Of a stretch of DNA of 64,000 nucleotides, positions 3,844-22,848 are shown piece by piece (the stretch's first letter is position 1; each line of letters begins with the position of its first letter). The notes under the pieces were generated by a model. The model was not told where the DNA came from, did no database searches, and worked only from the letters and a program-made list of their open reading frames with translations. Origin of the DNA: Mesorhizobium sp. (GTDB lineage Bacteria > Pseudomonadota > Alphaproteobacteria > Rhizobiales > Rhizobiaceae); NCBI GenBank assembly GCA_004017535.1, contig SAJS01000003.1, positions 186,001 through 250,000 of the forward strand, in the 5' to 3' direction. Made by a program: the position numbers and the translations under genes.

Positions 3844-4763
3844 CAGTCGAGCCCCTCGGGCCTGCGCAGCAGCCAGAGCTGGATGAGGCTGAGCGCCACC
3901 AGGATGGCCAGCAGCACCATGGAAAGTGCCGCGCCATAGCCCAGCTTGAACGAGACGAAGGACTGGTTGAAGATCCAGTAGACCGCCGTCAGCGTCTGGT
4001 TGCGCGGCCCGCCGCGCAGTATGATGTAGAACTGGTCGAAGGCTAGGATCGAGCCCGCCACCGACAGGATCAGCGCCAGCGCCAGCGTGCGGCGCATCAA
4101 GGGCAGCGTGATCGCCCTGAATCTCGCGAACGGCCCTGCCCCGTCGATGACGGCGGCCTCCTGCAGATCCTGCGGGATCGACTGCAGGCCGGTCATCAGG
4201 ATGATCATGGTGAAGCCCGCGACCTTCCAGACCACCATGGCGATGATCGACCAGAAGGCCGGCTGGAAGGTGGCGAGAAGATTGACCTTCTTTTCGGTCA
4301 GGCCGAGGTCGTAAGCGGCCGGGCTGAAAAGACCGGAATCGACATTCAAGAGCCAGGACCAGAGCAGGCTCGCCGAAGCGAAGCCGACGACCGCCGGCAT
4401 GAAGAAGGCGGTGCGGTAGAGATTGGTGAGCGGGCGCGGCTTTTCGATGAAGATCGCCAGCGGGAAGGCCACGGCGAAGATCGCGATGGTGACGATCACC
4501 GTGTAATAGAAGGTGAATTTCAGCGCGTTCCAGAACCGCGTGTCGCGCAGGATCGCTACATAATTGTCGAGGCCGACAAAGGCATGCTCGCCCATCAGCG
4601 GCCAGTTGTTGAGCGACATCCATGCCGTCATGCCGAGCGGGATGACGAAGAAGACGGTGACGAAAGCGACGGCCGGCAGGACGTAGAGCAGGCCAACCCA
4701 TTGCCGCAGGCTGGCGCTGGTGCGTGAGCGGACGAGCGCGGAGGTGCTGGCGATGGCAGTCAT
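3843..4763 (-). CDS. Carbohydrate ABC transporter permease (MalF type)
   Basis: A 306-residue inner-membrane permease with an N-terminal hydrophobic segment (LLYVLPAVAFVTVFF) and an EAA loop (EAAVIDGAGPFARF then LPL). ATG at 4763 is chosen because the longer open frame runs back through an intergenic repeat. It forms the heterodimeric channel with the MalG-type partner and overlaps it by one base. It lies 341 bases after the binding-protein gene. That gap holds a GC-rich stem-loop and a large palindromic repeat, which could lower permease expression relative to the binding protein. Confidence 0.92.
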   Translation of the reverse strand: MTAIASTSALVRSRTSASLRQWVGLLYVLPAVAFVTVFFVIPLGMTAWMSLNNWPLMGEHAFVGLDNYVAILRDTRFWNALKFTFYYTVIVTIAIFAVAFPLAIFIEKPRPLTNLYRTAFFMPAVVGFASASLLWSWLLNVDSGLFSPAAYDLGLTEKKVNLLATFQPAFWSIIAMVVWKVAGFTMIILMTGLQSIPQDLQEAAVIDGAGPFARFRAITLPLMRRTLALALILSVAGSILAFDQFYIILRGGPRNQTLTAVYWIFNQSFVSFKLGYGAALSMVLLAILVALSLIQLWLLRRPEGLD

Positions 4764-4768
4764 GGTCG

Positions 4769-4926
4769 CGCTCCCCCTTCTCCCCTTGTGGGAGAAGGTG
4801 TCGCCGAAGGCGACGGATGAGGGGTGTTCCAGCGGAGTGAGACGCTGGCGTTCCCTGAAACACCCCTCATCCGTCTCGGCGCTGCGCGCCGATCCACCTT
4901 CTCCCACAAGGGGAGAAGGGGGAGCG
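4769..4926. repeat. RIME/REP-like palindromic intergenic element
   Basis: The left arm (4769-4800) and right arm (4894-4926) are near-perfect reverse complements with the core CTTCTCCCCTTGTGGGAGAAG. A second nested pair surrounds CGACGGATGAGGGGTGTT and AACACCCCTCATCCG. The total is about 158 bases and untranslated. The layout matches the rhizobial intergenic mosaic element type found scattered between genes. It sits just upstream of the MalF-type permease start. In RNA it would fold as one long hairpin. No gene lies inside it. Confidence 0.8.
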
Positions 4927-5011
4927 AACCTCGGGGCGCCCTCAAATTGACGATGCCAGTGAAAGCGAATTGTCTCAACGCGATAGTCCTGCGGTTGGAC
5001 GGATGCAACTC

Positions 5012-5048
5012 CCGGCCGCCCGGCCAGGGAGACGGGGCGGGCGGCCGG
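5012..5048. promoter_or_regulatory. GC-rich stem-loop between binding protein and permease
   Basis: A perfect 11-base inverted repeat, CCGGCCGCCCG at 5012-5022 and its complement at 5038-5048, with a 15-base loop. It lies 57 bases after the binding-protein stop in the direction of transcription. No U-tract follows, so it is more likely an RNA-stabilising or partial-termination hairpin than a full terminator. Such hairpins are known after binding-protein genes of ABC operons. Confidence 0.6.
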
Positions 5049-5104
5049 CCAGGGCCCCGGCGACGGGGCGTTGCGCGATCCCCGCCGCCGGTCGGCCCTG
5101 GTGT

Positions 5105-6367
5105 CTACTTGTTCGGCGCCTGGTCGATGATCGACTGCATCGTGTCCTGCGCGTTCTTGATGGCGCCGTCGACGTCGTCGCCGAAGAACACCTCGTTGAT
5201 CATCTGCGTCCACGGACCGTTGGCGGAGTTGATCAAATCGTTGAACACCACCGAATAAGGCGTCCTGCCCTTGGCCATCGCCTCGGCCGCCACCTGGTAG
5301 CGCGGGTCGAGTTCCTTCAGCGCGTCCTTGGCGATGTCGTTGCGCACCGGCAGGCTGCCATATTTGGCGAGGATCGTCTGGCCTTCGAGCGAATAGGCGA
5401 AGTCCAGGAACTCCTTCACCACGGCGATCTTCTTGGTGCCCTTGGTGATGACGAAATTGTCGCCGCCGGCGAAGGAGGACCAGCCGCCATCCTTGCCCGG
5501 CAGGAAAGTGATGCCGTAGTCGATATCAGGATACTGCGTGTTGAGCGCGCCGATGGCGAAGGCGCCGGAGGGCGAGATGCCGATCTTGCCGCCGGCGAAG
5601 GCGGCGAAGAAGTTGGCGCCGGTGTCGGTCTGCGCGCCCTCGGGCACCAGCCCCTTCTTGATCATCGAGCGGTAGAGGTCGATGGCGCCGCGCAGTTGCG
5701 GGCTGTCAAGCGTCGCCTTCGAGCCGTCTTCCGACAGGATGTCGCCGCCCGAGGCCCAGATCAGCGGCGTGAAGGTGAAGATGTTGCAGCCGCCGCAGTT
5801 GCCGGAGAAGTAAAAACCCTTGATATCGCCGCCGAGCGCGTTGACCTTTTCGGCGTCGGCCGCGATCTCGGCCCAGTTGGCCGGCCCCTTCTCCGGGTCC
5901 AGCCCCGCCTGCTTGAACAGCTTCTTGTTCCAGATCAGCACCGAGGCGTCGGCCGAGAACGGCAGGCCATAGATGCGGTCCTTATAGGTGCCGGTCTTCA
6001 CATGCGCCGGCGAGAGGCTGGAAAAATAGGGCAAGGATTTCGCCCAGTCGGTGATGTCCTCCAACTGGCCGGCGGCGGCGAAGGACGGCGTGTAGATCAG
6101 GTCGAGCGAGAGCGCGTCGGGCGCCGTGCCGCCGGCGGCGGCCGCGCCATATTTCGGGATGATCTCGGCGTTGGGGATGATGTCGAGCTTGATCTGGTCC
6201 TTGTTCGCCTTGTTGAAGGCGTCGACGATGCGCGGCATGAAGTTCGAGCCGTCGGCGCGCACCCAGATGTTGGCGGTCTCGGCGGACGCCGCCTGCAGGC
6301 CGCCGCCGATGACGGCAGCGGCAAGCATCAGCTTGGCAAGCATGGTCTTCACGTTACTCCTCCTCAT
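5105..6367 (-). CDS. Extracellular sugar-binding protein of ABC transporter
   Basis: A 420-residue family 1 solute-binding protein. A Sec signal peptide (basic MRRSNVK, hydrophobic core, AASA cleavage site near residue 29) sends it to the periplasm. ATG at 6367 is fixed by a strong GGGAGGAG ribosome site just upstream; the longer open frame has no support. Downstream stretches such as DALSLDLIYTPSFAAAG and the aromatic-rich C-terminal half fit CUT1 binding proteins. It probably captures arabino-oligosaccharides for the two permeases that follow. It stands 59 bases after the LacI-type regulator in the same operon. Confidence 0.92.
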   Translation of the reverse strand: MRRSNVKTMLAKLMLAAAVIGGGLQAASAETANIWVRADGSNFMPRIVDAFNKANKDQIKLDIIPNAEIIPKYGAAAAGGTAPDALSLDLIYTPSFAAAGQLEDITDWAKSLPYFSSLSPAHVKTGTYKDRIYGLPFSADASVLIWNKKLFKQAGLDPEKGPANWAEIAADAEKVNALGGDIKGFYFSGNCGGCNIFTFTPLIWASGGDILSEDGSKATLDSPQLRGAIDLYRSMIKKGLVPEGAQTDTGANFFAAFAGGKIGISPSGAFAIGALNTQYPDIDYGITFLPGKDGGWSSFAGGDNFVITKGTKKIAVVKEFLDFAYSLEGQTILAKYGSLPVRNDIAKDALKELDPRYQVAAEAMAKGRTPYSVVFNDLINSANGPWTQMINEVFFGDDVDGAIKNAQDTMQSIIDQAPNK

Positions 6368-6426
6368 GGTTCTCCTCCCAGTTTGGCGACGCCGCCCGAC
6401 GGATGCGGGCGCGTGGCCGCGTTGCT

Positions 6427-7476
6427 TCATTCCGGCGGACCTCCGCATGACTGACGCACCACCAGGCGGCACGGCAGTTTCCTGATGCCCGGCGCGGCCG
6501 GCTGGCCGTCGACGAGCGAAAGCAGGGCAAGCCCGGCCTCGCGGCCGAGCGTCGAAAGATTCATGTCGACGGAGGTGAGCGGCGGGCGCGTCGCCTCGGC
6601 CACGATCTCCCAATTGTCGAAGCCAATGACCCCGACATCGTCAGGCACGCTTATGCCGCGCTCGCGCAGCGCATCGATGACGCCGCGCGCGATCTGGTCG
6701 TTGCCGCAGAAGACGGCGTCGGGCCACCCTTCCCTATCCGCCTTGCCGAACAGTTTTTCGACTGCCTCGTGGCCCCAGGCTTCCGACCAGGCGCCGAGCA
6801 ACGGCTCGCTCTCGGCTAGGCCGTTCTCCTTCAGGACATCGCGCCAGGCTTGCGCACGCGCATGCACGACGGCGAAGCTCGCCGGGCCGCTGACATGGGC
6901 GATGCGCCGGCGGCCGAGCCGCAGAAAATGCTCGACCGCCAGCCGCGCGCCGCCGGCATCGTCGGAGACGAGGCCGATCGCGCCGGGATCGGGCTGGGTG
7001 AAAGCGTAGACGACCGGAATGCGCAGATTGGAGAGATCGACCGGCAGATGGCGGTCGATGCGCTTTCCGGTGGCGATGATGCCGTCGACGCGCTTGTCGA
7101 GCATGGCCTCGACATGCAGCTGGCCGAGCCGCTGGTCGTCCTCGACATTGCACAGGAACACCGAGACGCCCTTGTCGACCAGCGCATCCGAAACGCCGGC
7201 CATCAGCGGCAGCGAGAAGCGGCCATAGGTATCGTTGGTGAGCAGGCCCACGGTGAAGGAGCGTTTTCTGAGCAGGCTCTGCGCCAGGCTGTTCGGCCGG
7301 AAGCCGAGCAGCCGCGCCGTCTCGCGAATGCGCTCGCGCGTCTCCGCCGTCATCCGCCCCTGCCCGTTCAGCGCCTTGGACGCCGTGGCCACGCTGACAC
7401 CCGCCGCGGCCGCCACCTCGCGCAGCGTGACCGGCGGCTTGGCGGAAACTGGCGCTGGTTCGGGGGCGGAAGGCAT
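6427..7476 (-). CDS. LacI-family transcriptional regulator
   Basis: A 349-residue repressor. The N-terminal helix-turn-helix reads TLREVAAAAGVSVATASKAL (about residues 17-36), followed by the hinge helix with NSLAQSLLRKRS and a periplasmic-binding-like sugar domain to the C-terminus (VIGFDNWEIVAEATRPPLTSV). It is the first gene of the minus-strand sugar operon. Two identical operator-like half-palindromes lie 26 and 94 bases upstream of its start, so it probably represses itself and the operon until its sugar binds. The inducer is likely an arabinose derivative (inference from GH127). Confidence 0.9.
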   Translation of the reverse strand: MPSAPEPAPVSAKPPVTLREVAAAAGVSVATASKALNGQGRMTAETRERIRETARLLGFRPNSLAQSLLRKRSFTVGLLTNDTYGRFSLPLMAGVSDALVDKGVSVFLCNVEDDQRLGQLHVEAMLDKRVDGIIATGKRIDRHLPVDLSNLRIPVVYAFTQPDPGAIGLVSDDAGGARLAVEHFLRLGRRRIAHVSGPASFAVVHARAQAWRDVLKENGLAESEPLLGAWSEAWGHEAVEKLFGKADREGWPDAVFCGNDQIARGVIDALRERGISVPDDVGVIGFDNWEIVAEATRPPLTSVDMNLSTLGREAGLALLSLVDGQPAAPGIRKLPCRLVVRQSCGGPPE

Positions 7477-7501
7477 GGGCGCGGCGGAATCCCTTAGGTG
7501 A

Positions 7502-7513
7502 GAAAAGGTTTTC
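7502..7513. promoter_or_regulatory. LacI-type operator, proximal copy
   Basis: GAAAAGGTTTTC, a 12-base palindrome with only the central GG breaking symmetry; family operators usually centre on CG. It lies 26 bases upstream of the LacI-family start. A second identical copy lies 68 bases away, about six and a half helical turns. Confidence 0.55.
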
Positions 7514-7569
7514 CCTTATCGCCCTGCGCGTTGATGACGGGTGAGGTCAGCGGACGCGGGGTGGGTTGG

Positions 7570-7581
7570 GAAAAGGTTTTC
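7570..7581. promoter_or_regulatory. LacI-type operator, distal copy
   Basis: A second exact copy of GAAAAGGTTTTC. Its flanks (GG before, TC after) mirror those of the proximal copy, so the two extended sites face each other in inverted orientation. Paired operators fit looping by a tetrameric LacI-type repressor. Confidence 0.55.
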
Positions 7582-7798
7582 TCAGTGCTCAGAGTAAAGG
7601 AAGGGGGAGAGGTTGGCAAGGGGGATGAGGACAGGCGAGGCAAGCCGAAAGCTGCCGGTCCGCTTACGGCTCCATTCCACTCGTTCGAGAACTGTTAGCG
7701 AAGCCGGGAAACCGCCGTTCCATTCGGCGCGCCGCGCCGTCAGCGTTGGGCCCACGCTCTGCTTGGCTTCAAGTACCCAGAACTGCCCTGGGCTCTGT
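7582..7798. other. Intergenic region without recognised gene
   Basis: Between the sugar-operon operators and the end of the receiver-EamA gene. Short frames cross it on both strands but none has family resemblance or a convincing ribosome site. The promoter of the LacI operon must lie at its left edge. No strong terminator hairpin for the receiver-EamA gene was seen. Confidence 0.4.
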
Positions 7799-9352
7799 TC
7801 ATTCCGTTGGCAGCGGCACAAGGTCGAGCCTCGGCACGAATTCCTCTATTTCATCGTCGAACGGTGGCGGTTCTTCTTCAGCTTCCTGCTTCGGTTCGAC
7901 CATCAGCAGGCCGACCACGATCAGCGCTAACGAAACCCAGGTGAGCGCCGGTATCGCTTCGCCCAGCAGCAACATGCTCCACCCTATACCGGCCGCGGTT
8001 ACGGCGTAGGCGTTCTGGCTTGCGAACACAGCACCTGTGCTGGAGATCAGCGCAATGAAGAGCAGCATGGCCAGATTGCCGGCAATTGCCATCAGAATGA
8101 CAATGATGCCAAGCCTTCCGGTCAACAAACCAACCGGTATGAAATCCGCATAAAAGGCCGCCAGCGGGATCAGCATCAGAAGCGAAGCAACAAGGACGAT
8201 GCCGAACATTGCGACGCTGTCGATGGCAGTCGGTTTGAACTCAGAAAGATAGATATCCTCCGTGGCATAAGTGGCGGGGATCACGAGCGCGATGGCAAGC
8301 CACAACCAGTTGGTGTTCATTTGTCCCGGCTCGCCAAAGAAGAGAATGATAACGATGCCGACGAGCCCCAGTCCAAGGCCCAAAAACCGCTTCATGCTGG
8401 GCGCCTCGGTCCGCATCAAGGCCGCGAACAGGAATACGGCGAACCCTTCGAGTACGATGACGATGGAGACGATAAAGGCGGGAAGCTTGCTCGCCAGCCA
8501 ATAGACCAGCACCTGATTGATCACCGAGCTGATGAACGCGAGGATGATGACGAACCGCCAATCCGAGCGCGTGAGAGCAGACAAGCTCGGCATGGTCCCG
8601 CGCTTGAGGCTAATCCCGAGGCAGAACGCAGCTCCGATAAGGTCAATAAGGATCGCTAGTCCAATCGGGTGAGCTTCAACGAGCGAAGCCATTTTCGACA
8701 GCGGGACGACAAGGCCCCACAGTCCTCCGCAGGCCAACAGCAGCAAGGCTCCGCGGAATGTGCGGATATTTTGCCGCATCTTGCGCTCGCGCTCGTAAAC
8801 CTTTTGGGCCATCGTAGCGAACACACTGGCGAGCTTGCCCAGACCATCGGTTCGGGCTGCCACATCGCGGAGGCCCAGCTTCGCAGGGTTGAACCTGCCA
8901 CCTTCCAGGGTTGCCGCCGCCTTCGTCAACTTGGCTACCTGACGCAGATATTCCTTCTCTACGTCGCGCAGTCGCTTTTTCTCGATGCACGTGGAAATGC
9001 GCGCCTTGAGAAGCGCCAGCTCGAAATCCTTGGGCAAGAAATCCTCGGCGCCCAATTCAATCGCCTTGACGACGCTGCTCATCTCATCGTCAAGCCCGGA
9101 AATCACAATCACCGGCACATCCCGGGTCCGCGGCGACGTCTTGAGGCTCGTCAGCACTTCGAAGCCGTCCATCACCGGCATCATGATATCGAGAAGAACA
9201 AGATCGAAATTTTCGGCTGCGAGCAGGTCGAGTGCCGCTCGCCCGCTCTCTACAGCCTCGGCTTCATGTCCGAGAGCCTCGACCGATTTCTTGAGCTTGG
9301 TCCTTATGGTCCGAGAGTCGTCGACGATGAGGATTTTGCCGGGGTTGCTCAC
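7799..9352 (-). CDS. Response regulator receiver fused to EamA/DMT transporter
   Basis: A 517-residue fusion. Residues 5-125 are a CheY-like receiver with the acidic pair D11-D12, phospho-acceptor D55 in LVLLDIMMP, S85 and K108 in FLPKDF. Residues 125-200 form a charged, probably coiled-coil linker. Residues 202-486 hold about ten hydrophobic helices with the EamA/DMT exporter pattern, and the acidic tail EAEEEPPPFDDEIEE is cytoplasmic. GTG at 9352 is the start, with GGGGAAA upstream; it lies one base past the Hpt stop (TAGCGTG), so the two genes are probably co-translated. A phosphorylation-gated transporter or a membrane-anchored receiver is inferred. The cargo is unknown. Confidence 0.85.
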   Translation of the reverse strand: MSNPGKILIVDDSRTIRTKLKKSVEALGHEAEAVESGRAALDLLAAENFDLVLLDIMMPVMDGFEVLTSLKTSPRTRDVPVIVISGLDDEMSSVVKAIELGAEDFLPKDFELALLKARISTCIEKKRLRDVEKEYLRQVAKLTKAAATLEGGRFNPAKLGLRDVAARTDGLGKLASVFATMAQKVYERERKMRQNIRTFRGALLLLACGGLWGLVVPLSKMASLVEAHPIGLAILIDLIGAAFCLGISLKRGTMPSLSALTRSDWRFVIILAFISSVINQVLVYWLASKLPAFIVSIVIVLEGFAVFLFAALMRTEAPSMKRFLGLGLGLVGIVIILFFGEPGQMNTNWLWLAIALVIPATYATEDIYLSEFKPTAIDSVAMFGIVLVASLLMLIPLAAFYADFIPVGLLTGRLGIIVILMAIAGNLAMLLFIALISSTGAVFASQNAYAVTAAGIGWSMLLLGEAIPALTWVSLALIVVGLLMVEPKQEAEEEPPPFDDEIEEFVPRLDLVPLPTE

Positions 9353-9353
9353 G

Positions 9354-9701
9354 CTATTTCCCCAGATTGAAGATTGTTCGAAGCTCGGTGATGGCGACGT
9401 CGAAGGCACTCTGTACATCGCCGATCTCGGCAAGACTTGCGGGCTCCCCGCTTGCGCACCGCGCCTCGACCCCGCCGCAGATCTGGCTGAGATCAGTCGC
9501 ACCCATATCCCGCGCATTCGATTTCAGGGAGTGGGCGGCCCGTCGGACGGCAGCGTAGTCGGAGGCCTGACACGACGACCACATGTCCTGCATGATGGAC
9601 GGCCCTTCCTCCAAGAAGGACTCCACAAGCTCCAGAAGGTCGGCTTCCTCGCCACCGACAAGCTCAAGCAGCTTGTCCAGCGCCCCTCTGTCGATCGCCA
9701 C
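9354..9701 (-). CDS. Hpt domain phosphotransfer protein
   Basis: A 115-residue stand-alone histidine phosphotransfer protein. H57 in RRAAHSLKSNARDMGA is the expected phospho-accepting histidine, with the typical HxLK helix and an alpha-helical composition throughout. It should shuttle phosphate from the second receiver of the upstream hybrid kinase to the receiver of the downstream EamA fusion. It ends one base before the fusion's GTG. A 214-base AT-richer gap separates it from the kinase gene, so it may also have its own promoter. Confidence 0.9.
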   Translation of the reverse strand: MAIDRGALDKLLELVGGEEADLLELVESFLEEGPSIMQDMWSSCQASDYAAVRRAAHSLKSNARDMGATDLSQICGGVEARCASGEPASLAEIGDVQSAFDVAITELRTIFNLGK

Positions 9702-9915
9702 AACATCCCCCGATGTATGCTTCTTCGAATAAGCCGGCGACGAAAAACCTCTGCCGACGCTGGCAAAAACAGCGAAATCGAACTCCCTACTTTTTTCAGA
9801 GTTCCATCGCGTTGAAAAGACATATTATCGCAGCAATGCTAAATTAGTGAGATAACCATTCCCGGCGATGCTACCACGACTCCAAATGTCGATTGCTCCA
9901 ACGCCGTCGTTCCAT

Positions 9916-12900
9916 CTAGAGGCGGTCAGGCACGCCGGCATCTTCAATTTCACCCGCTGCGCCCCGCAGACCTTCACCCAAATTCACCACGGCTTTGTTC
10001 AGGGAGGCTATGAGATCTTCGACACGCAACGGCTTGCTCAGATAATCGTCCATTCCAGCATTCAGGTATCTCTCGCGATCGCCCGCCATCGCGTTGGCGG
10101 TCAGGGCAATGATGAATGGTTGATGCAGGGCTTTGGCATTGATACCGCGGATCAATCTTGTCGCTTCGAGCCCATCCATGTCAGGCATTTCGATATCCAT
10201 TAGGATAACCTCATGGCTGCCCTGGCTGTACGCGGCGATCGCCGACTGGCCGTCGATCGCCAGGTCCGGCTTGTATCCCAGGCGCTCGAGCACCTTAGAG
10301 CCAAGCTTCCGGTTGGTGGCATTGTCGTCGACCAAAAGAATTTGCAGCGGAAACGTCTTCGCCATCGAACCGTCAAAAGCGGGGGCCTTCGGTTGATCGG
10401 CTCGGATGGAGCGAGCCGGCGTCCCAACAAAGATCGACAGCAACGTGTTGAGCAATGGAGAAGGCTTGATCGGCTTGGATAGCGCGGCCGCAAACCGCAA
10501 GCTTTCCATTTCCTTCTTCCTGTCCTCCGACATCGGCACCATGGAACTAAGCAGCACCAGCGGAACGCTTTCCGTGCCTTCGAGCGCGCGGATTTTTCTA
10601 GCGAGTTCGATCCCATCCATGTCAGGCATGTTCATGTCGAGAACGATGACGTCGAAGACTTCCCCTGCTTCAAGCTTTCGCAGTGCGTCGCGCGGGTGTT
10701 CGCTCGCGGACGCGATCATGTTCCATGACTGCGCCTGCAGGGCCATGATGCGGCGGTTGGTTGCGTTATCGTCCACAACGAGCAACCGCTTGCCTGCCAG
10801 TTCGACGGTGGCCGTCGGGGCGTTTGCTAGCTTTTGGCGCGATGCCACAGGCGCGCGAATCGTGAAGAAGAATGTGGTGCCCTTCCCTTCCGCGCTGTCG
10901 ACCCAGATCTCGCCGCCCATCAACTCCACCAGGCGCCTGCTGATGGCCAAGCCAAGTCCGGTTCCGCCATAGCGCCTGGTCGTAGAAGCATCGACCTGGC
11001 TGAAAGATTTGAAGAGCCGGTCCATCCGGTCGCCGGGTATACCGATGCCGGTGTCGCGAACCGAAAACTGGAGCGTGCAAATCTTCCCCTCGCCGTCCTC
11101 GTTTGAACCATGGTTTGTGGCTGGGGACGCGACCGCCATCACCGAAAGGACGATCTCTCCCCGCTCAGTGAATTTGACAGCGTTATTAAGGAGGTTGATC
11201 AGCACTTGGCGAAGTCGGCTGCTGTCGGCAATTACCGCCTCCGGCGTACCGGGCTCGATCAAATAGCTCAGATCGAGCCCTTTTTCGGCCGTTCTCGGTG
11301 CGATCAAATCGATCGCACTTTCCAGGCAGTCGCGCAATTGGAACTGCCGAGGATCGAGATCGATCTTGCCCGCCTCGACCTTGGAGAAATCGAGTATGTC
11401 ATTTATGACGGTGAGCAGGGCCTCGGCGCTGTTGTTAATTGTCTCTCCAATTTCCCGCTGCTCATCATCCAGTTTTGTCGCTAGCAGCAGGTTGGCCATG
11501 CCGATCACACCGTTCATCGGTGTGCGGATTTCATGGCTCATCGTTGCCAGGAACGTACTCTTAGCCTCGTTGGCCGCTTCGGCAGCCTCCTTTGCCTGCT
11601 GAAGGGCGAGGGAAAGTTGTTTGAGCTCAGTCACGTCCTGCGTGGATGACACAATGCGCGACCAGTCATTTGCCGGGTCCTCCGGAAGCTGAACTGTCTC
11701 GACCAGATAGAGATCGCGCCCGCTGAAATCCTTGTCGCAGACCTCGGTCGAGGTGTGCAGGCGACCGTCGAAATATTGGGCGACGGCATCTGGGTAGGTT
11801 GCCCAGGAGTGTTCCCCGGTGTCTGCCTCCAACCGAGACCGCAACGCATCTTTGCTTTCAGCTCCGTAGAGCCGAACCAGCGCATCGTTGAAATCGATCC
11901 AGCGCACGGAACTGTGGAGAGACGCGGCAATTTGCGGGTTATCGCGGAGATAGCCGCGGACATCACTGATCCCCTGCCGCAACAGGCCATCGACGACAAC
12001 TTTGAGTCCGGACCAATCCTCCTCCCAAAGCGGAATTGGGGCCGATTCAAAAAGTTGTCGGAACCGTCCTTCGCTCTGGCGAACGGCGGCCTCGGTGTAC
12101 TTTAGCTCGCTAAACAGCTGCGCGTTGTGTAAGGCGGCGCCCGCTGTGGCGGCGATGGTGGAAAGCAAACGCAGAGAGTCATCGTTGAACATGCCCTCGC
12201 GTGTAGTGCTCTGCACACTGATCACACCGACATTTCCCTGGCCAGTCCTGATGGGAACACCGAGATAGGAGAGCGCGTCCTTGCCCACCGGCGTTGCTCC
12301 AATTTCGGCTCCGCGTTCGGCGACATCCCGATTGATAAGCAAGGGCTCACCTGTTTCGAGGATTTTGCTCGTTAGGCCTTCACCGAGCCGAAGCGTGGTG
12401 AAGGCTTCGCCGAACTGGTAGGGGAAATGAATGAGCTTGGTCTTGGGATCGAGCAAGGCCACATACACAATGTCGGCGCTGAAAATTTCTTGCATTTGAT
12501 CGCCAATCAGCTGGATCGTGTTGCCAAGCTCAGCTTCACCGACCAGCGCCTGACTAACCTTGCTGATTGCCCCCAGTTCGGCCGCGCGCTGTTGCGTCTC
12601 CTTTAGAAGTCTCTGGGTCTCGTCGAAGAGGCGGGCGTTGGCGATCGCAACTCCCATGTTGGAGGCTATCGTCTGCAGCAGGCGTACATGGTTCTCGTCG
12701 AATGCGTTCCTTTCGTAGCTTTGCACACTGACTACGCCGAGCGTCTTATCGCCCGAATTGATTGGGACGCCAATGTATGAAGAGGTCCTGTCCTCTTCGA
12801 ACGGGAAATAGGCACCGCGCCTTTTTCCTTCCTCCATGGTGCTGAAAACCAGCGGCTTTCCCGTGGAGATGATCTCCGATGTAAGTCCTATTCCGAGCGA

Positions 12901-14295
12901 GAACGGTTCGATGGTCTTGTAGCCCCTGTAGTAAGCGTAGGGCACTCGAACCAGCCCGGATTGGCTATCGTGCAACAAAATCTCGCTGACCTCAGTGCCA
13001 AAGGCCTCCCTGACTTTGTCCCCCACCAGCCGAATAACAGTGTCGACGTTCAGCGACTTTGTCATCGCTTCGCCGACGCTATTGAGAATGGCCATCTCCT
13101 TGGCACGGTCTTGAGCCATCTTCAGCAGCCGCTGCGTCTCGTCGAAGAGGTACGCGTTGGCTATGGCAACGCCCATGCTGGACGAGAGCGCCTGCAGCAG
13201 GCGCACGTGATCTTCGCTGAAGACGTTCTTCTGATAGCTCTGGACGCTGACCACACCGAGCGTTCTGTCACCGGCAATGATCGGAACGCCAAGATAGGAC
13301 TCGGTCTTGTCCTCTTCCGTCGGCATCAGTGCGCCCAGAGCAATGTGCTCTTCGATAGTCCCCAAAAGAAGTGGCTTGCCCGACAGAATGACTTTCGACG
13401 TCAAACCTTCGCCCATGACGAAGGGTTCAGGCTCCTGGTAGTCGCGGTAATACGCGTAAGGGACAGTAATCAGATCAGACTTCTCATCGCGCAGCAGGAT
13501 CTCGGTGACCTCGGCACCAAACATTTCGCGAACCTTGTCGCCGACGATCCTGCTCACCGTCTTGACATTCAGCGTTTTGGCGGTCGCTTCGCCGACGCTG
13601 TTGAGAATGGCCAGTTCTTTTGCGCGGCCCTCTGATATTTTCAGGAGCCGCTGAGTCTCGTCGAAAAGGCGCGCATTGGCGATCGCGACTCCCATACTGG
13701 AGGATAATCCCTGCAGAAGGCGCATGTGATCTTCATTGAAGGCATTCTTCTCGTAACTCTGCACACTGACAACGCCCAAAGTTCGGCCGCCGGCAATGAT
13801 TGGAACGCCGATATAGGATTCTGCCCGCTCCGCTTCGGTGAGGGCGATCACATCGAATTCGAGGGACTGTTGAAACGTCCCGAGAACCAATGGTTTTCCA
13901 GACAGAATTACCTTGGAGGTCAGCCCCGCGCCCAAAGTGAAAGGCTCGACGTCCTGGTACTCGCGATAAAATGAATACGGGACGGTGATGAGATCAGAGG
14001 CCTCGTCGTGCAACAGAATTTCGGTTATGTCCGCGCCAAATATTTCTCGCACCTGATCACCCACGATGCGGGTCACCGTCTTGACATTCAGCGTCTTTGC
14101 CATCGCTTCGCCGACGCTGTTGAGGATGGCGAGTTCCTTGGCACGTTCCTCGGCGAGTTGAATCAGGCGCTTGTTTTCGGCGGAAAGTCGATCAAGCTCG
14201 ATTGCCGCGTCTGCATTGCTAGTTTCCAGTTCGGCAATATGACGATTGGCGGCTTCCAGGAGACTGGCGAGGTCACCTTCCACTAAGCGCTGCAT
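9916..14295 (-). CDS. Hybrid histidine kinase with four GAF domains and two receivers
   Basis: A 1459-residue soluble sensor kinase. A short coiled coil is followed by four GAF domains (about 50-222, 223-395, 396-568, 569-735). The first three repeat with an exact 173-codon period. Then come a PAS-like region (about 740-890), a HisKA domain with H921 in [11 protein letters not shown], an HATPase domain with [15 protein letters not shown] and GGTGLGL, and two receivers with D1220 ([10 protein letters not shown]) and D1367 ([10 protein letters not shown]). No membrane segment is visible, so the signal is cytoplasmic. ATG at 14295 follows GGGAGAAC; the longer frame runs into decayed DNA. There is no built-in Hpt domain; the next gene supplies it. 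Confidence 0.93.
13063..14145 (-). repeat. 519-base in-frame tandem repeat encoding GAF domains
   Basis: The stretch around the codons for AILNSVGEA recurs at 14101, 13582 and 13063, exactly 519 bases (173 codons) apart, with high DNA identity across units. This points to recent duplication or gene conversion of one GAF module. The fourth GAF is strongly diverged. Confidence 0.85.
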
Positions 14296-15351
14296 GTTGG
14301 TTCTCCCAAAAAGGACATCCGCAGCTTCACCGGAATGCCTTCCCACCCGTATATTAGCAAGCAATGTTACATGCCAGACGCCTGATTGACAGTACCGGCG
14401 AGGATCGCCTTGAGGGATAAGCTGGACTCTTTGCCCAAGCTCCGCGTCTGCTTTCGGCAGAGATGAGGCGCTTCGCGGCCCCACCGAGGCGGTAGAGCCG
14501 CTTCCAGTCAGACCTCCGTCGCCTCGGCGAGTTCCAGGGCGTTTTCTACGTCGACGCCAGATACCGGACTGTGCTTTCGATTTTAGGTGGCCTAACAGAA
14601 TCTGAACAGCCCAAAGCTTATCAGTTGCCCTGCAGAACCCTCGCGTGGCCGCCCTTTGGCGCGGGACCACCGCTGCCACCTGGCGCACAGAAATACCGCT
14701 TTTGAGTTGTTGCCAAGGTCGGCGGAACTGCCGAGATGAGGCGCAAAGCTGCCGAGCATCGTGAAGAACGAACGCCGGTTTCGGTCAAAAGCAACCCAAT
14801 AGCGGCTTGTCCTCTTACCTATGAGATCAGCGAAATCGCCCGCCATTCCACCCCGCCCCGCTTTCTGCTTGATATCGCCTCCGCCGATGGAGCATCGCCA
14901 CCACCCCCTTCGCGCCCTCGCGCCAAACGCACCCTCGCCCGCTGCGCCGATCAGCTCGCCGGGCTGACGGCCATCGCGCATCGGCCGACTCCCCTCCCCA
15001 GCGACGATTCGCTGATTCGGCTCGCTCACCCGCTCGCCGGCGCGGCGGGCGCGGTCGGCTTTGCGGAGGCCGCGGGCGGGACTCAGCGCTGGAGACGCGG
15101 CTCGCCGAGCAGGGCAAGCGTGCGCGGCGTACGAGATGACGATGTCGAGGTCCTCGCCCATCGTGTCCCGTGGCGGATCCGACCAGCCCAAACTGACCTT
15201 TTCTGGGTGGATTTTTGCCGGAAGCCGCGAGTCCTGTGGATAGTTGCCCCGGAGTTTGGCAGTTCGATCCCCGAGTGTTGCATTTTTGCCATCACAAATT
15301 TCAACAACCCCTGCTAGAACATCACCGGGTTTTAACTTGGGGTTATAGGCT
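14296..15351. other. Accessory intergenic region, mostly decayed
   Basis: More than 1 kb without an intact gene. The left part should hold the kinase promoter. A recombinase remnant lies at 14508-14640. Frames of 190-290 codons cross the middle on both strands, but they are rich in Ala, Arg, Pro and Ser, match no family I recognise and overlap each other, as expected of high-GC non-coding DNA. The last 60 bases should carry the promoter of the outer-membrane gene. Confidence 0.5.
14508..14640 (-). pseudogene. Tyrosine recombinase (integrase) C-terminal remnant, frameshifted
   Basis: Read in pieces, the minus strand gives [17 protein letters not shown], then ESTVRYL in another frame, then [15 protein letters not shown] and a TGA at 14510-14508. 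Together they match the C-terminus of phage-type integrases ([30 protein letters not shown]), including the catalytic tyrosine of TVRYLG. One base is missing after HLK and one in the YLG codons, so the reading frame breaks twice. The N-terminal catalytic part is absent. This is a relic of a mobile element. Confidence 0.75.
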
Positions 15352-16665
15352 ATGCTTCTTCGTATTTCCGCGAAATCGGTTCTGCTGGGTGCTGTTTCCG
15401 CTGTTGCCTTGATGTCGGCCGCGCATGCCGCCGACGTTGTCCAGGAGCAGGCGGCCCCCGGTTTCAACTGGAGCGGCGTCTATGTCGGCTTCGGCGTCGG
15501 GGCCGGCGCCAATGTGCACAAGCTCAGCAGCGACTTCCTCCCGGGAGCCTCACTCAACGGCATCGGCGGCGAAGGCATCTTCGGCCAGGCGACCGTCGGC
15601 TATGACTACATGGTCTCGCAGCGCTTCCTGCTTGGCGGCCTGATCGACGCCCATGTCGGCACGATCAAGACGTCGCTTGATGTCGGCGCCCTGGGCGGCC
15701 TCAGCGCCGACCTCAAGGAAACCTACGGCTTCGATGTTGGCGTGCGCGCCGGCTACCTGCTGACGCCGACCACGCTGGGCTATGTGCTGGGCGGCTATGC
15801 CTGGCAGAAGTACAAGCTCGACACCAATGCCGGCTTTGGCATGGATTGGGACCAAGGCGGCTACTTCGTCGGCGCCGGTGTCGAAACCGCGATCAACAGC
15901 AACTGGACGCTGAAGGGCGAGTATCGCTACACCCGGTTCAGCACCAAGGACAATCTGCTTTCCCAGTTTGGGCTGCCGGATGGCGCGCTCAATCTCGATA
16001 CCTCGCGCCACACCTTCGAAGTGGCCGCCAGCTACCGTTTCAACGCAAATGACGGCGGCGCGGCCAGCTTCGAGACGCCTTCCTACAACTGGACCGGCTT
16101 CTATGTCGGCGGTGGGCTCGGCGCCGGCGCGGCGGTTCATCAGGTTGAAATCCCGCCGGCTGGCGTCAAATTCAACGGCCTGGGCGGCGAAGGCGTGTTC
16201 GGCGAAGCCAGCATCGGCTACGACCAGGACATGGGCAGCTGGGTGGTTGGCGGACTCGTGGACGCGCGCCTCTCCGGCATCAAGTCGAAGCTTGACCTGG
16301 GCGGGCTCCTGGGTGGTGTCGATTCGGTAAGCTTCAACACCGACTATGGCTTCGACGTGCTCGGCCGCATCGGCATGAAGGTCAATGAAGCAACGCTGGC
16401 CTACGCGCTCGCAGGCTATAGCTGGCAGCATTTCAAGCTCGATGCTCCGGCACCGTTCGACGTCGATTGGGGCTCCAGCGGCTTCTCGGTGGGCGCGGGC
16501 CTGGAAACGGCCGTGTCGGACAAGATGACCGTCGGCATCGAATACCGCTATTCGCAGTTCGCCAAGGAAGACTTTTCGGACGAATTCCCGATCTCGAGCG
16601 GGCTTGCGACCTCGACGCCGTCCTTCCACACCGTGCGCATCGACGCCAAGTACAAGTTCAACTAA
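15352..16665 (+). CDS. Outer-membrane protein with duplicated beta-barrel domain
   Basis: A 437-residue secreted protein of the Omp25/Omp31-like outer-membrane family. A signal peptide ends at AAHA near residue 26. Two homologous halves follow. The first opens FNWSGVYVGFGVGAGANVHK (about residue 38), the second YNWTGFYVGGGLGAGAAVHQ (about 244). Each half continues with matching strands (GGEGIFGQATVGYD and GGEGVFGEASIGYD; GYAWQKYKLD and GYSWQHFKLD) and ends in an aromatic strand (AASYRFN and DAKYKFN). Members usually have one such unit, so this may form two eight-stranded barrels or one larger barrel. A strong terminator follows. The gene stands alone. Confidence 0.88.
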   Translation: MLLRISAKSVLLGAVSAVALMSAAHAADVVQEQAAPGFNWSGVYVGFGVGAGANVHKLSSDFLPGASLNGIGGEGIFGQATVGYDYMVSQRFLLGGLIDAHVGTIKTSLDVGALGGLSADLKETYGFDVGVRAGYLLTPTTLGYVLGGYAWQKYKLDTNAGFGMDWDQGGYFVGAGVETAINSNWTLKGEYRYTRFSTKDNLLSQFGLPDGALNLDTSRHTFEVAASYRFNANDGGAASFETPSYNWTGFYVGGGLGAGAAVHQVEIPPAGVKFNGLGGEGVFGEASIGYDQDMGSWVVGGLVDARLSGIKSKLDLGGLLGGVDSVSFNTDYGFDVLGRIGMKVNEATLAYALAGYSWQHFKLDAPAPFDVDWGSSGFSVGAGLETAVSDKMTVGIEYRYSQFAKEDFSDEFPISSGLATSTPSFHTVRIDAKYKFN

Positions 16666-16691
16666 GCAAAGGCCTCCAGCCAAGCAAGGAA

Positions 16692-16719
16692 AGCCCGCCG
16701 ATTTGGCGGGCTTTTTTTT
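16692..16719 (+). terminator. Rho-independent terminator
   Basis: The perfect 8-base stem AGCCCGCC and GGCGGGCT with loop GATTT (16700-16704) is followed by a run of eight T (16712-16719). It lies 27 bases after the stop of the outer-membrane gene and 60 bases before the end of the convergent adaptor gene. Confidence 0.93.
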
Positions 16720-16779
16720 GCGGGTCGACAAATGGGCGGCGATCCGATCGCGCAACGGTGGGCGCGCGGAAGCTCGGGG

Positions 16780-18075
16780 CTACTGTCTGAAAGCCCGGCT
16801 GATCTGGTCCTGCAGCGGCTTGACCAGGTAGGACATCACCGAACGATCCTCGGTCTTGATGAAGGATTCCACCGGCATGCCGGGCACCAGCTTCACCTCG
16901 CCGAGCCGCGCGACCTCCGCGGCAGTCGTGGCAATGCGCACCGTGTAATAGCTGATGCCGGTGCGCTGGTCGGTGGTTATGTCGGGCGAGGTCCGCTCGA
17001 CCACGCCGTTGATCTGCGGCGTGGTGCGCTGGTTGAAGGCCGAGAAGCGCAGCGAGGCAGGTTGCCCGACCCATAGCTGATCGATGTCGCTCGGCGCGAT
17101 CTTGGCCTCCACCGCCAGATTGTCGTTATCGGGCACCACCTGCATGATGGTCTCACCTGGCTTCACCACGCCGCCGACCGTGTAGGCGATCGACTGCTGC
17201 ACCACACCGTCCTGCGGAGCGCGGATATCGACCCGCTTCAGTTGGTCCTCGGCGGCGACCTTCCGCTCCAGCAGTTCGCCCATCCGACCGTCGACGTCGC
17301 GCAGATCCTTGTTCACTTCGGTGCTGAGATCGAGGTTGATCTGGATGATCTGGAGCTTGATTTCGGCGATCTTCCCCTGCGCCTGTGCCTGCGCAGCGAC
17401 GAGTTGACCGCGTTCGCCGTCCAGGCGGGTAGCCTCGCGCTCGGTCTGCGTCAACCGATCGATCGAGATGAGCTTCTTGGCCCACAGCGTGCGCACCGAT
17501 GCAAGCTCCTGTTGCACAAGCTCGATCTCCTTGCTCTTGGCCTTAGCCTGCGCGGTGTCGCCGACGATCTCTTTCTCGAGTTGCGCGATACGTTCCTCGA
17601 GCTGGCTCTTCTGGCCGGCGCGGGACGTGCGGCGCGTCTCGAAATGCTGTTTCTCGCCCGAGATCGCCTCCGCGACATCCGGGTCGGCCGAGCGATCGAG
17701 AAGCTCGCGGGGAAACGCGATGCTGTCGGCACCCTGGCGCTCGGCGTCGAGCCGGGCCTTGCGCGCGGAAAGCTGGTCGAGCGCCTTGCTCACCACGCCG
17801 AGATTGGCGGCCGGAACGGTACGGTCGAGACGCAGCAAAAGGTCGCCGGCTTTCACGCGGTCGCCGTCGCGGGCATCGATCTCAGCAACGATGCCGCCCG
17901 TCGAATGCTGCACGTCCTTGACGTGGGAATCGACCACGAGCGTGCCCGGGGCGATGACCGCGCCCGCAATCTCGGTGACCGAGGCCCAGCCGCCGACGCC
18001 TCCGGCGAGCAGGAGCACGACGCCGAGGCCAAGACGCGTGTAGAAACGAATCGAGGCGTGCGAGGCGCCGGTCAT
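16780..18075 (-). CDS. Type I secretion adaptor, HlyD family (PrsE-like)
   Basis: A 431-residue periplasmic adaptor with one N-terminal membrane anchor (LGVVLLLAGGVGGWASV), a biotinyl-lipoyl-like region (GGIVAEIDARDGDRVKAGD), a long coiled coil (about residues 90-270) and the C-terminal barrel. It bridges the ABC exporter in the inner membrane and a TolC-type outer-membrane channel, which is not encoded here. ATG at 18075 follows GGAGGG, one base after the exporter stop (TAGCATG). It is the last gene of the secretion operon. Fold and context make the assignment firm; PrsE is the closest named relative in rhizobia. Confidence 0.92.
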   Translation of the reverse strand: MTGASHASIRFYTRLGLGVVLLLAGGVGGWASVTEIAGAVIAPGTLVVDSHVKDVQHSTGGIVAEIDARDGDRVKAGDLLLRLDRTVPAANLGVVSKALDQLSARKARLDAERQGADSIAFPRELLDRSADPDVAEAISGEKQHFETRRTSRAGQKSQLEERIAQLEKEIVGDTAQAKAKSKEIELVQQELASVRTLWAKKLISIDRLTQTEREATRLDGERGQLVAAQAQAQGKIAEIKLQIIQINLDLSTEVNKDLRDVDGRMGELLERKVAAEDQLKRVDIRAPQDGVVQQSIAYTVGGVVKPGETIMQVVPDNDNLAVEAKIAPSDIDQLWVGQPASLRFSAFNQRTTPQINGVVERTSPDITTDQRTGISYYTVRIATTAAEVARLGEVKLVPGMPVESFIKTEDRSVMSYLVKPLQDQISRAFRQ

Positions 18076-18076
18076 G

Positions 18077-20083
18077 CTAATGCCCTCCCTCGGTTCCATC
18101 CGCGACGGCACGCGGCGGATTTTCCGCGGCCACCCTCAGCTGTGGATTTGCCGACGGCACTGGACGCAGCGTCGGGAACATCTTGGCGAACACTTCGTCC
18201 TTGGGACCGAAAGCGTGAATGCGTCCCTGATTCACGGCCAGGACGAAATCGACGGCCGCCAGCACGTTTGGCCGGTGCGCGACGATCACGACGATGCCGC
18301 CCCTTTCGCGCACGCCGAGCATCGCCTTGATCAGCGCCTGCTCGCCATCCATGTCGAGATTGGAGTTCGGCTCGTCCAGCACCACCAGGAATGGGTCCCT
18401 ATAGAGCGCGCGGGCGAGCGCGATGCGCTGGCGCTGGCCGGCTGAGAGCGCCTCGCCATGCTCGCCGATCTCGGTCTCGTAGCCTTCGCGAAAACCGACG
18501 ATGAGCTCATGCGCGCCCGCGGCCTTCGCCGCGGCGATGATGGCGCCGGCATCGGCATTCGGCTCAAACCGGGCAATGTTCTCAGCCACCGTTCCGGCAA
18601 AGAGCTCGACATCCTGCGGCAGGTATCCGATGTGGCGGCCGCGCTCCGCCTGCGACCATTGATCGAGGTCGGCGCCGTCCAGCTTTATCCTGCCGATGGC
18701 GGGGAGCCAAGCGCCGACAAGCGCGCGTACCAGGGTGGATTTCCCCGACCCGCTCGGACCGATGATGCCGACGCCGTGGCCTGCCTCCAGGGCGAAACTC
18801 GCGTCCTGAACCAGGAGTCGCTGGGTGCCCGGCGCGGCGACGCCGACATTGTGCATGCTGACATTCGCGCTCGGTGGCGGCAGCAACATCGGATCGGCTT
18901 CAGCTGGCAGCGCCGCCAGCACCCTGTTCAGCCGCTGCCAGCCCTGGCGCGCGGTGACAAAACCCTTCCAATTGGCAATCGCAAGATCGACCGGCGCCAG
19001 CGCGCGGCCGCTGAGGATGGAGGCGGTGATGATGATGCCCGCCGTTGCCTGCCCCCCGATCACCAGCCAGGCGCCGAGGCCGAGCATGGCCGATTGCAGC
19101 AGCATGCGCAGCACCCGCGACACCGCGCCGAAACCAGCTGCGACGTCGCTCACCTTGCGCTGCTCCGCGATATAATCGAGGTTGGCGCCTTGCCAGCGCG
19201 CGGTAAGGCCGCCGGCCATGCCCATGGCCGCAACAACTTCCGCATTGCGATTGGCGGCGCTGACCAAGCCGTTGCGGCGGATACCGCTCGACGTTCCGGA
19301 CGAAACCGGCTTTCGCGTCAGTCGTTCGGCCATGATCGTGAGCGCGACCAGCACGATCGCGCCGATCAGCGCCGTGACGCCGAGCAGCCAGTGGAACATG
19401 AAGATGATGAAGAGGTAGAGCGGCAGCCACGGCAGGTCGAAAAGCGCCGTCGGCCCGCTGCCAGACAGGAAGACGCGAACGCTGTCGAGATCGCGCATCG
19501 GCTGCAGGCTGTCGCCGTCGCGACCCGTCTTGAGCGGCAGGCGCAGAATCGATTGATAGACGCGGCCGCCAAGCGCTTCGTCGAGCGCGCCGCCAATGCG
19601 GACCAGCACGCGTCCGCGCACGAATTCGAGGACACCCTGCCCGCTATAGAGGATAAGCAGCAGGACCGAGAGGCCCACGAGCGTCGGCAGGCTGCGGCTC
19701 GGCAGCACGCGGTCATAGACCTCGAGCATATAGAGCGAGCCGGCGAGCATCAGAACGTTGAGGACGCCACTGAACATCCCGACAGCGAGAAAGGCGGAGC
19801 GGCAGGCGCGAAGGGCCTCGGCAAGCTCCGAGCCTTGCGGGCGCTTGTGGAGGGTTTTGGCCGATCGGGCGGGTGCGGCAACTTTGGCAGCCGCGTCGCG
19901 CAAATCAGCCGGACGAGCGCGAAACAGAACCAGGCCGCCGAAGCCGGCGATCGCCGTTGCACCAAACGCCGCGCCTCTCGAGAGCGATCCGCTCGCAAGA
20001 ATCGCCACGCCAAGGATGAGAAGGATGAGGCCTGCCAGCCTCACCCTCGCCTGCCCTGTGCCTAACATGCCGGTTGTTGCCAT
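18077..20083 (-). CDS. Type I secretion ABC permease/ATPase (PrsD-like)
   Basis: A 668-residue exporter in which an N-terminal membrane domain (about residues 110-370) is fused to an ATPase. Walker A GPSGSGKSTL starts near residue 442, the signature is LSAGQRQRIALARAL, Walker B is FLVVLDEPNSNLD and the switch histidine lies in VIVAHRPN. An extra pair of hydrophobic helices lies at the N-terminus before residue 50. No C39 peptidase or RTX-binding domain is seen. It should export the large repeat protein encoded 34 bases upstream. Confidence 0.93.
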   Translation of the reverse strand: MATTGMLGTGQARVRLAGLILLILGVAILASGSLSRGAAFGATAIAGFGGLVLFRARPADLRDAAAKVAAPARSAKTLHKRPQGSELAEALRACRSAFLAVGMFSGVLNVLMLAGSLYMLEVYDRVLPSRSLPTLVGLSVLLLILYSGQGVLEFVRGRVLVRIGGALDEALGGRVYQSILRLPLKTGRDGDSLQPMRDLDSVRVFLSGSGPTALFDLPWLPLYLFIIFMFHWLLGVTALIGAIVLVALTIMAERLTRKPVSSGTSSGIRRNGLVSAANRNAEVVAAMGMAGGLTARWQGANLDYIAEQRKVSDVAAGFGAVSRVLRMLLQSAMLGLGAWLVIGGQATAGIIITASILSGRALAPVDLAIANWKGFVTARQGWQRLNRVLAALPAEADPMLLPPPSANVSMHNVGVAAPGTQRLLVQDASFALEAGHGVGIIGPSGSGKSTLVRALVGAWLPAIGRIKLDGADLDQWSQAERGRHIGYLPQDVELFAGTVAENIARFEPNADAGAIIAAAKAAGAHELIVGFREGYETEIGEHGEALSAGQRQRIALARALYRDPFLVVLDEPNSNLDMDGEQALIKAMLGVRERGGIVVIVAHRPNVLAAVDFVLAVNQGRIHAFGPKDEVFAKMFPTLRPVPSANPQLRVAAENPPRAVADGTEGGH

Positions 20084-20117
20084 GCCGGTTTCGCTAAGGC
20101 CGATTGAACCGCAACGC

Positions 20118-22541: not shown

Positions 22542-22848
22542 GTCCATCCTCCAGGGCGCGGTCGCGTCCCAATTGGCCGCTCCAGGCGGCGAAATAGCCC
22601 ATGCCAAAAGCACCGAAATCGGCGCCCGAATTCAGTGAGGAGGATCAACTTGGCGTCCGGCAAGCCGCGCCCACCGGCCCCCGGCCAGCGAGCAACCAAA
22701 TGCAACATGGCGGCTCACGACGGCGGACGAATCCGGTTATAACGGCTAAGGCGGCTCAGATGCCGCGCTGAGTTCCCCTACCCCAGTAGCGCCTTACTCG
22801 TTGTTGCCGGTCGCGAGTTTGTTCACGCTACTCTAATATTAGGATATT

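Follow-up and report, generated by a model that had tools for sequence, protein, structure and literature searches.

A putative phosphorelay of Mesorhizobium in which the last receiver is fused to an EamA-type membrane transporter

Control of transcription or of second messengers is the role usually assigned to two-component systems, and the usual outputs of response regulators are DNA binding, an enzyme, or the binding of RNA or protein. Transporters are found on the input side of CbrA and CrbS, which are SLC5-STAC-histidine kinase transceptors (PMC13022988; see also PMC9100948 and PMC5715377). The locus described here is in a stretch of 64,000 nucleotides from Mesorhizobium sp. (GenBank assembly GCA_004017535.1, contig SAJS01000003.1, positions 186,001 to 250,000), which as a whole is referred to as the window. 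Three genes on the same strand encode a hybrid histidine kinase, a lone Hpt protein, and a receiver domain fused to an EamA-type transporter. The locus resembles CbrA and CrbS in that a coupling domain joins a transporter to the rest of a two-component protein. In CbrA and CrbS, however, the transporter is at the kinase input and a DNA-binding regulator is the output, whereas in the window a DMT carrier would be at the output, on the terminal receiver. By Pfam the transporter of the window fusion is EamA rather than SLC5 with STAC, and it is joined to a receiver rather than to a kinase. It is likely, at a probability of about 0.7, that the locus encodes a His-Asp-His-Asp phosphorelay with a membrane transporter as its terminal response regulator, which would gate transport directly.

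Part of this layout is present in other systems. TorS has its Hpt in cis, and TorR binds DNA. The likeness of TorT-TorS-TorR is to some relatives of the window locus only, those in which a periplasmic binding protein accompanies a kinase bearing a TorS-type sensor domain. In the relay described here Hpt is instead a separate gene and the proposed output is a membrane carrier, and the window kinase is of the GAF type with no TorS sensor match in Pfam. To our knowledge, the known EamA/DMT transporters stand alone. The carrier half of the fusion is like such transporters (5I20, which we take to be YddG, and LicB, 7PAF) in its two EamA matches, ten predicted helices and fold, and differs from them in bearing an N-terminal receiver and a linker. 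The possibility of related EamA domains bearing other sensory N-termini was considered and rejected. The class and phylum searches gave 22 loci with EamA only, and no EamA frame in them matched the references for receiver or linker, in a scan that did not extend to other sensor domains.

The receivers nearest to that of the window belong to receiver-cyclase proteins. Loci and genomes from the searches are identified by L and G numbers where necessary. At L124 (G384) there is a GAF-type hybrid kinase, an adjoining lone Hpt and a receiver fusion, with the receiver 51% identical to that of the window, but this relay has a class III nucleotide cyclase (Pfam Guanylate_cyc) as its output instead of a transporter. 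Four further loci (L118, L119, L122, and L125) have a hybrid kinase, a lone receiver, and a window-like receiver followed by cyclase-like sequence, in proteins of 520, 555, 365, and 524 amino acids. Receiver-only matches of about 45–50% identity are present on Sinorhizobium and Rhizobium plasmids among the matches listed. The sequence-only reading knew of no described relay of this layout. This stands to the extent that no receiver with a transporter output was found in a literature search, which did not cover the key reviews of response-regulator outputs. A term search of the main text of the phosphorelay-domain survey PMC4558063 returned no mention of EamA or transporter. The phosphorelay itself is known, and what is rated as new here is its type of output.

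The components of the locus, in window coordinates, are as follows.

9916–14295, minus strand: hybrid histidine kinase of 1459 amino acids, with ATG at 14295 after GGGAGAA.
9916–14295, minus strand: domains of this kinase, which are four tandem GAF, HisKA, HATPase_c, and two receivers (Pfam).
9354–9701, minus strand: stand-alone Hpt protein of 115 amino acids, GTG start, phospho-acceptor H57 (Pfam Hpt, E 9e-13).
7799–9352, minus strand: receiver-linker-EamA fusion of 517 amino acids, GTG start (Pfam and sequence).
8933–9352, minus strand: receiver domain of the fusion, residues 1–140, with D11, D12, D55, S85, and K108.
8762–8932, minus strand: helical linker of the fusion, residues 141–197 (AlphaFold2 model).
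7802–8761, minus strand: EamA/DMT transporter domain, with ten predicted membrane helices and an acidic tail (AlphaFold2 model, Foldseek).

The sequence-only reading of three same-strand genes, for a GAF kinase with two receivers, a lone Hpt and a receiver-EamA protein, is borne out by Pfam and by these coordinates. It was also correct in placing the last two genes one base apart, with base 9353 separating the Hpt stop from the start of the fusion gene. The phospho-acceptors that it named are all present at their positions: H921, in the motif SHEIRTP; D1220 and D1367, the aspartates of the kinase receivers; H57 of Hpt; and D55 of the fusion receiver. The kinase part of the relay is complete, with a HisKA histidine, an ATPase domain, and an in-cis receiver aspartate (Pfam), as is the active site of the fusion receiver, with two acidic residues, Asp, Ser/Thr, and Lys. 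In a Pfam scan of the fusion, run on a version with a longer upstream start, the matches were to Response_reg (E 1.2e-26) and, over two stretches, to EamA (PF00892, E 2e-17). The latter is the only domain above cut-off besides the receiver, and an output domain of the type usual in response regulators is absent. No membrane segment is evident in the window kinase, for which the highest 19-residue hydropathy is 1.30, as against 2.07–2.96 in the kinases of nine non-GAF relatives. The first three GAF copies of this kinase are similar by eye, which suggests tandem duplication, and the copy number is 4, 4, 3, and 2 among relatives.

A total of 13 distinct loci with a receiver-EamA fusion were found, 12 of them open and one (L193) with a broken transporter half, with three plasmids counted once. 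They lie in genomes from the same genus, family, order, and class as the host, in Devosia and Brevirhabdus, and on Mesorhizobium plasmids. Protein searches were made in family, order, class, and phylum genome samples, which overlap. Of the genomes sampled, 6 of 394 from the family, 2 of 397 from the order, 1 of 385 from the class, and 3 of 398 from the phylum have a full-length fusion; the host's own genome is included in each count and is the only one in the class sample. The other matches are receiver only in the family (the remaining 19 of 25 matching genomes), incomplete in the order (G616), receiver or EamA alone in the class (26 genomes), and partial in the phylum (12). Among the best 80 of 583 loci in named genomes, all of which were rescanned, EamA matches were found only in L033 and L034, the fusion carriers being Devosia sp. 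66-14 and a Brevirhabdus metagenome-assembled genome. Of 83 matching plasmid records, 3 have the fusion, all from Mesorhizobium and 79% identical to that of the window; among themselves these are alike at 528–530 of 530 residues. A same-genus DNA search added the locus L203 in G1478. None of 21 loci from viral contigs had an EamA match.

A lack of conserved linkage had been named beforehand in the sequence-only reading as a result that would refute it, and this check was passed. A two-receiver hybrid kinase and an Hpt gene are in a same-strand run with the fusion in all 13 loci. In 12 of these both are within 1.5 kilobases (kb) of the fusion gene, and in 12 the Hpt gene either overlaps an open fusion gene or is at most 1 base away from one, L034 being the exception in each case. 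By comparison, 23 unfused EamA relatives were scanned with the same references over their stored flanks, of up to 1.5 kb, and none had kinase, Hpt, or receiver kin there. Nine residues of the phospho-chemistry are invariant in 13 of 13 loci (H921, D1220, D1367, H57, D11, D12, D55, S85, and K108), including every phospho-acceptor named above, and K60 of Hpt is likewise invariant. The split-relay layout is strongly supported by this linkage and by the invariant phospho-acceptors. The linker is 39–88% identical to that of the window in the other 12 loci. Locus-to-locus distances are correlated between the kinase core, Hpt, receiver, and EamA (r 0.53 to 0.91; in each of the six pairings, none of 2000 permutations reached the observed value), although shared ancestry alone would give part of this correlation, which has to be held against it.

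The fused EamA domains (13 rows) are on one side of a branch supported at 100/99, with 11 unfused rows on the other. These 11 are from the 22 unfused rows available, and the 13 represent 12 loci, with L034 present twice and L193 omitted as its gene is broken. Likewise, the fusion receivers (14 rows) are separated at 95/87 from 13 receivers of cyclase-type regulators, for which the cyclase was confirmed by Pfam only in L124 and judged from the residues after the receiver in the others. The ratio of non-synonymous to synonymous substitutions (dN/dS) of the EamA part is 0.092, 0.075, 0.097, and 0.205 in four unsaturated pairs, with 2 of 6 pairs saturated. These values are far below 1, and the transporter half is therefore maintained by purifying selection. 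The fusion is found at EamA identities as low as 32%.

The abundance of EamA and receiver genes, together with the rarity of the fusion, might suggest a chance or artefactual origin, in which an ordinary transporter was joined to a receiver by a frame error or the genes are unrelated neighbours. This is refuted by the conserved linkage in 13 of 13 loci and has a probability close to nil; the 12 open frames, the near-identical plasmid copies, the invariant residues, and the dN/dS well under 1 also argue against it.

Models of the fusion were made with AlphaFold2. For the full-length protein (md3d0c1c08808; 9 rows) the predicted local distance difference test score (pLDDT) is 79 and the predicted template modelling score (pTM) is 0.56. 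For the transporter half (m61a525c46032; 23 rows) these are 88 and 0.83. The table of helices and loops was set by hand from the models. The last helix of the receiver (112–150) is followed by a short connector and a helix (170–223) that becomes the first transmembrane helix (TM1). From the predicted helices and a sequence pattern, we infer that the linker is a HAMP-style signal-transmitting coupler; there is no HAMP match in Pfam for the linker. By Foldseek the receiver domain matches receivers such as PleD and RR468. The first 38 rows for the transporter half against PDB (E 5.7e-7 to 1.9e-3) are chains of LicB, triose-phosphate translocator, CMP-sialic acid transporter, SLC35B1, 5I20, nucleotide sugar transporter, Vrg4, and PfCRT. 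These are read as the DMT superfamily, and the transporter half is predicted to have the DMT fold. The best match is LicB, a choline importer, and the label of 'exporter-type' given from the sequence is therefore not upheld. If the ten helices hold, both ends of the fusion would be cytoplasmic.

A natural exchange of the output half is evident from comparison of the window with L188, on a Mesorhizobium plasmid, and L203, in G1478. L188 and L203 are 90% identical in receiver residues 1–125, 83% in Hpt, and 89% in the kinase, yet 61% in EamA. Against the window, L188 is 82% identical in EamA and 66% in the receiver. When nucleotide identity is taken per 20 codons, that of L188 and L203 is 78–95% over codons 1–120 and 48–80% from codon 121, whereas that of L188 and the window is 48–70% over codons 1–120, 83% over codons 121–140, and 65–85% thereafter. 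The trees conflict in the same manner, with L188 paired with L203 in the receiver (98/97) and Hpt (98/94) trees, but with the window in the EamA tree (96/97), where L203 groups with L113 and L114 (95/89). The identities and the conflicting trees show that the linker and carrier were swapped together, with the break at the end of the receiver, and that the receiver was kept with its Hpt. This pattern would be expected of a receiver that is constrained to match its Hpt and of a carrier that serves as an exchangeable output, and the joint inheritance of receiver and Hpt lends indirect support to the proposed phosphotransfer.

The inputs of the relay also differ between the loci. Soluble GAF kinases are present in four, with 4 GAF domains in the window, 2 in L033, 4 in L188, and 3 in L203. 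In the remaining nine, the kinases contain strongly hydrophobic segments, and several of them match HAMP, PAS, or CHASE5. A periplasmic solute-binding protein gene adjoins the kinase, in the same orientation, in 8 of these 9; for L117, the ninth, the contig stops 20 bases past the kinase. The binding protein is of family 3, the amino-acid type, above the Pfam cut-off in L113, L114, L191, and L193, and of the DctP type in L192. A divergent binding protein without a Pfam match is found in L115, L116, and L034, that of L116 being assigned by likeness to the proteins of L115 and L034, and the two that were tested have weak similarity to EhuB. The TorS sensor domain is above the Pfam cut-off in the L191 and L193 kinases and below it in that of L192. 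In NCBIfam, the L191 and L193 binding proteins score best against models for lysine/arginine/ornithine binding proteins, although below the cut-offs of these models. Since solute-binding protein genes adjoin the membrane kinases, an extracellular signal is the likely input in the non-GAF relatives, with an amino acid as a candidate. Kinases fed by binding proteins in relatives suggest that the carrier moves the compound whose outside level is read. On the Mesorhizobium plasmids a D-2-hydroxyacid dehydrogenase gene (L188, 16673–17698) follows the relay, a possible hint as to the substrate.

These sensors bear on whether the transporter could itself be the input. Putative sensing fusions of a transporter to a kinase are known in CbrA and CrbS (PMC13022988), and the helical link of the model could transmit motion in both directions. 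The EamA half might thus sense substrate occupancy or flux and set the rate at which the receiver is phosphorylated or dephosphorylated, with feedback to the kinase by way of Hpt and with the transporter as an input or phosphate sink. This transceptor in reverse is unlikely. The loci have other sensors, either GAF domains (four) or a membrane kinase (nine, eight of them with a solute-binding protein gene), and with EamA as the input no other output gene common to the loci was seen. That the receiver tracks the Hpt lineage while EamA is exchanged separately fits an exchangeable output, but would fit an exchangeable sensor too.

Some observations weigh against a relay that ends in the carrier alone, or against parts of the evidence for it. 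The fusion is rare and patchy across the genome samples. In L193 (G616) the transporter half is interrupted by a frame break, which is either decay or an assembly error. Near its start (about residues 91–170), the L188 kinase resembles that of the window more than that of L203. There has therefore been more than one exchange or uneven change, and the history is more complex than a single crossover; any of the copies may be the recombinant. The gene order in L034 is two open fusion genes, a binding-protein gene, the kinase, Hpt, and a receiver of 171 amino acids that overlaps the Hpt gene and has a piece of EamA after it in a different frame. This short receiver may be a lone receiver or a broken third fusion, and the open fusions are 5.1–7.6 kb upstream, so that the relay may branch in L034. 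In L191 a protein of 615 amino acids with a LuxR-type (GerE) domain is encoded at 431–2278, overlapping the end of the receiver-EamA gene, so that a DNA-binding output could exist at least in this locus. Among single results, this gene speaks most clearly against the idea that transport is the sole output. As a separate observation, the run of genes in L034 is at 7704–16387, and the second of its two tandem open receiver-EamA genes is very divergent.

The L034 receiver that adjoins Hpt, which lacks an open EamA half, and the L191 LuxR-type gene that adjoins the fusion are in keeping with a branched relay, in which the kinase and Hpt would mainly drive a DNA-binding or enzyme output elsewhere and the receiver-EamA protein would be a side branch or membrane-bound phosphate sink. 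There are also 56 places in the host's own genome that match the fusion at E <= 0.001, mostly receivers. Such a relay is nonetheless quite improbable. The EamA half is under purifying selection with its ten predicted helices kept, which exceeds the needs of a sink, and the three genes move as one cassette, including on plasmids and with the same-genus site empty elsewhere.

This movement is evident from a search of 21 same-genus genomes with window positions 5600–18000. The LacI-side flank was matched in many at 82–93%. Among the matches listed, those in the relay region exceed 1 kb only in G1478 of the 20 other genomes, and several others have short matches to kinase motifs. The site between the LacI and barrel-protein genes (window 7471–15275) is variable in the genus. 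The flanks are 7803 bases apart in the window but 278 bases apart in G1472, where the LacI-side DNA is thus close to the barrel-protein gene and the relay was either inserted or lost. About 13–14 kb of other DNA is between the flanks in G155 and G1479. The sites in G1472, G155, and G1479 have no match to window 7799–14295, and the relay thus comes and goes as a block. Plasmid pML2037 carries the relay at a distance of some kilobases from genes for relaxase and TraG. A connection with the sugar operon downstream (LacI, solute-binding protein, and permease; 3843–7476) was considered and rejected, as same-genus genomes without the relay retain the LacI-side DNA. On the other side of the relay, the outer membrane barrel protein at 15352–16665 (plus strand) has two Pfam OMP_b-brl stretches and is apparently two barrels in one protein. 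It is followed at 16780–22613 (minus strand) by genes in a row for an HlyD-type protein, an ATP-binding cassette (ABC) exporter, and a protein of 831 amino acids with DUF7507/DUF11 repeats. This set is likely a type I secretion system with its cargo.

For the relay that ends in the carrier, the linkage, invariant phospho-residues, predicted fold, purifying selection, grouping of the fusions, and exchange at the receiver boundary are seen in the sequences themselves, and transport can with good reason be taken as the probable output. The course that we infer, for the phosphotransfer and its order, the gating, and the substrate and direction of transport, is as follows. A cytoplasmic signal would be sensed by the GAF domains, and the kinase would be phosphorylated at H921. 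Phosphate would then pass to one of the in-cis receivers (D1220 or D1367), from there to Hpt at H57, and then to D55 of the fusion receiver. The last helix of the receiver would continue through the HAMP-like linker into the first membrane helix, so that a change in the receiver could push on TM1. Phosphorylation would alter the conformation, gating, or oligomeric state of the carrier, and the flux of a small metabolite would change. In relatives, the same relay would be fed by a membrane kinase and a periplasmic solute-binding protein, often of an amino-acid-binding family.

The fusions may well, if with less assurance than the relay itself, represent a distinct class of response regulator with a membrane carrier as its output. 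A phosphorelay of this class would act directly on metabolite flux, through the protein itself, with sensors and carriers swapped independently around a constant Hpt-receiver core. The natural swap at the receiver boundary shows where such proteins exchange in nature, which makes the module testable, and the fusion would be a tractable system in which to study the gating of a membrane protein by a soluble domain that is phosphorylated. If this is true, a receiver built into a carrier would let the cell alter transport within seconds without new protein. Because the same three-gene set recurs in distant relatives, bacteria may open or close transport directly.

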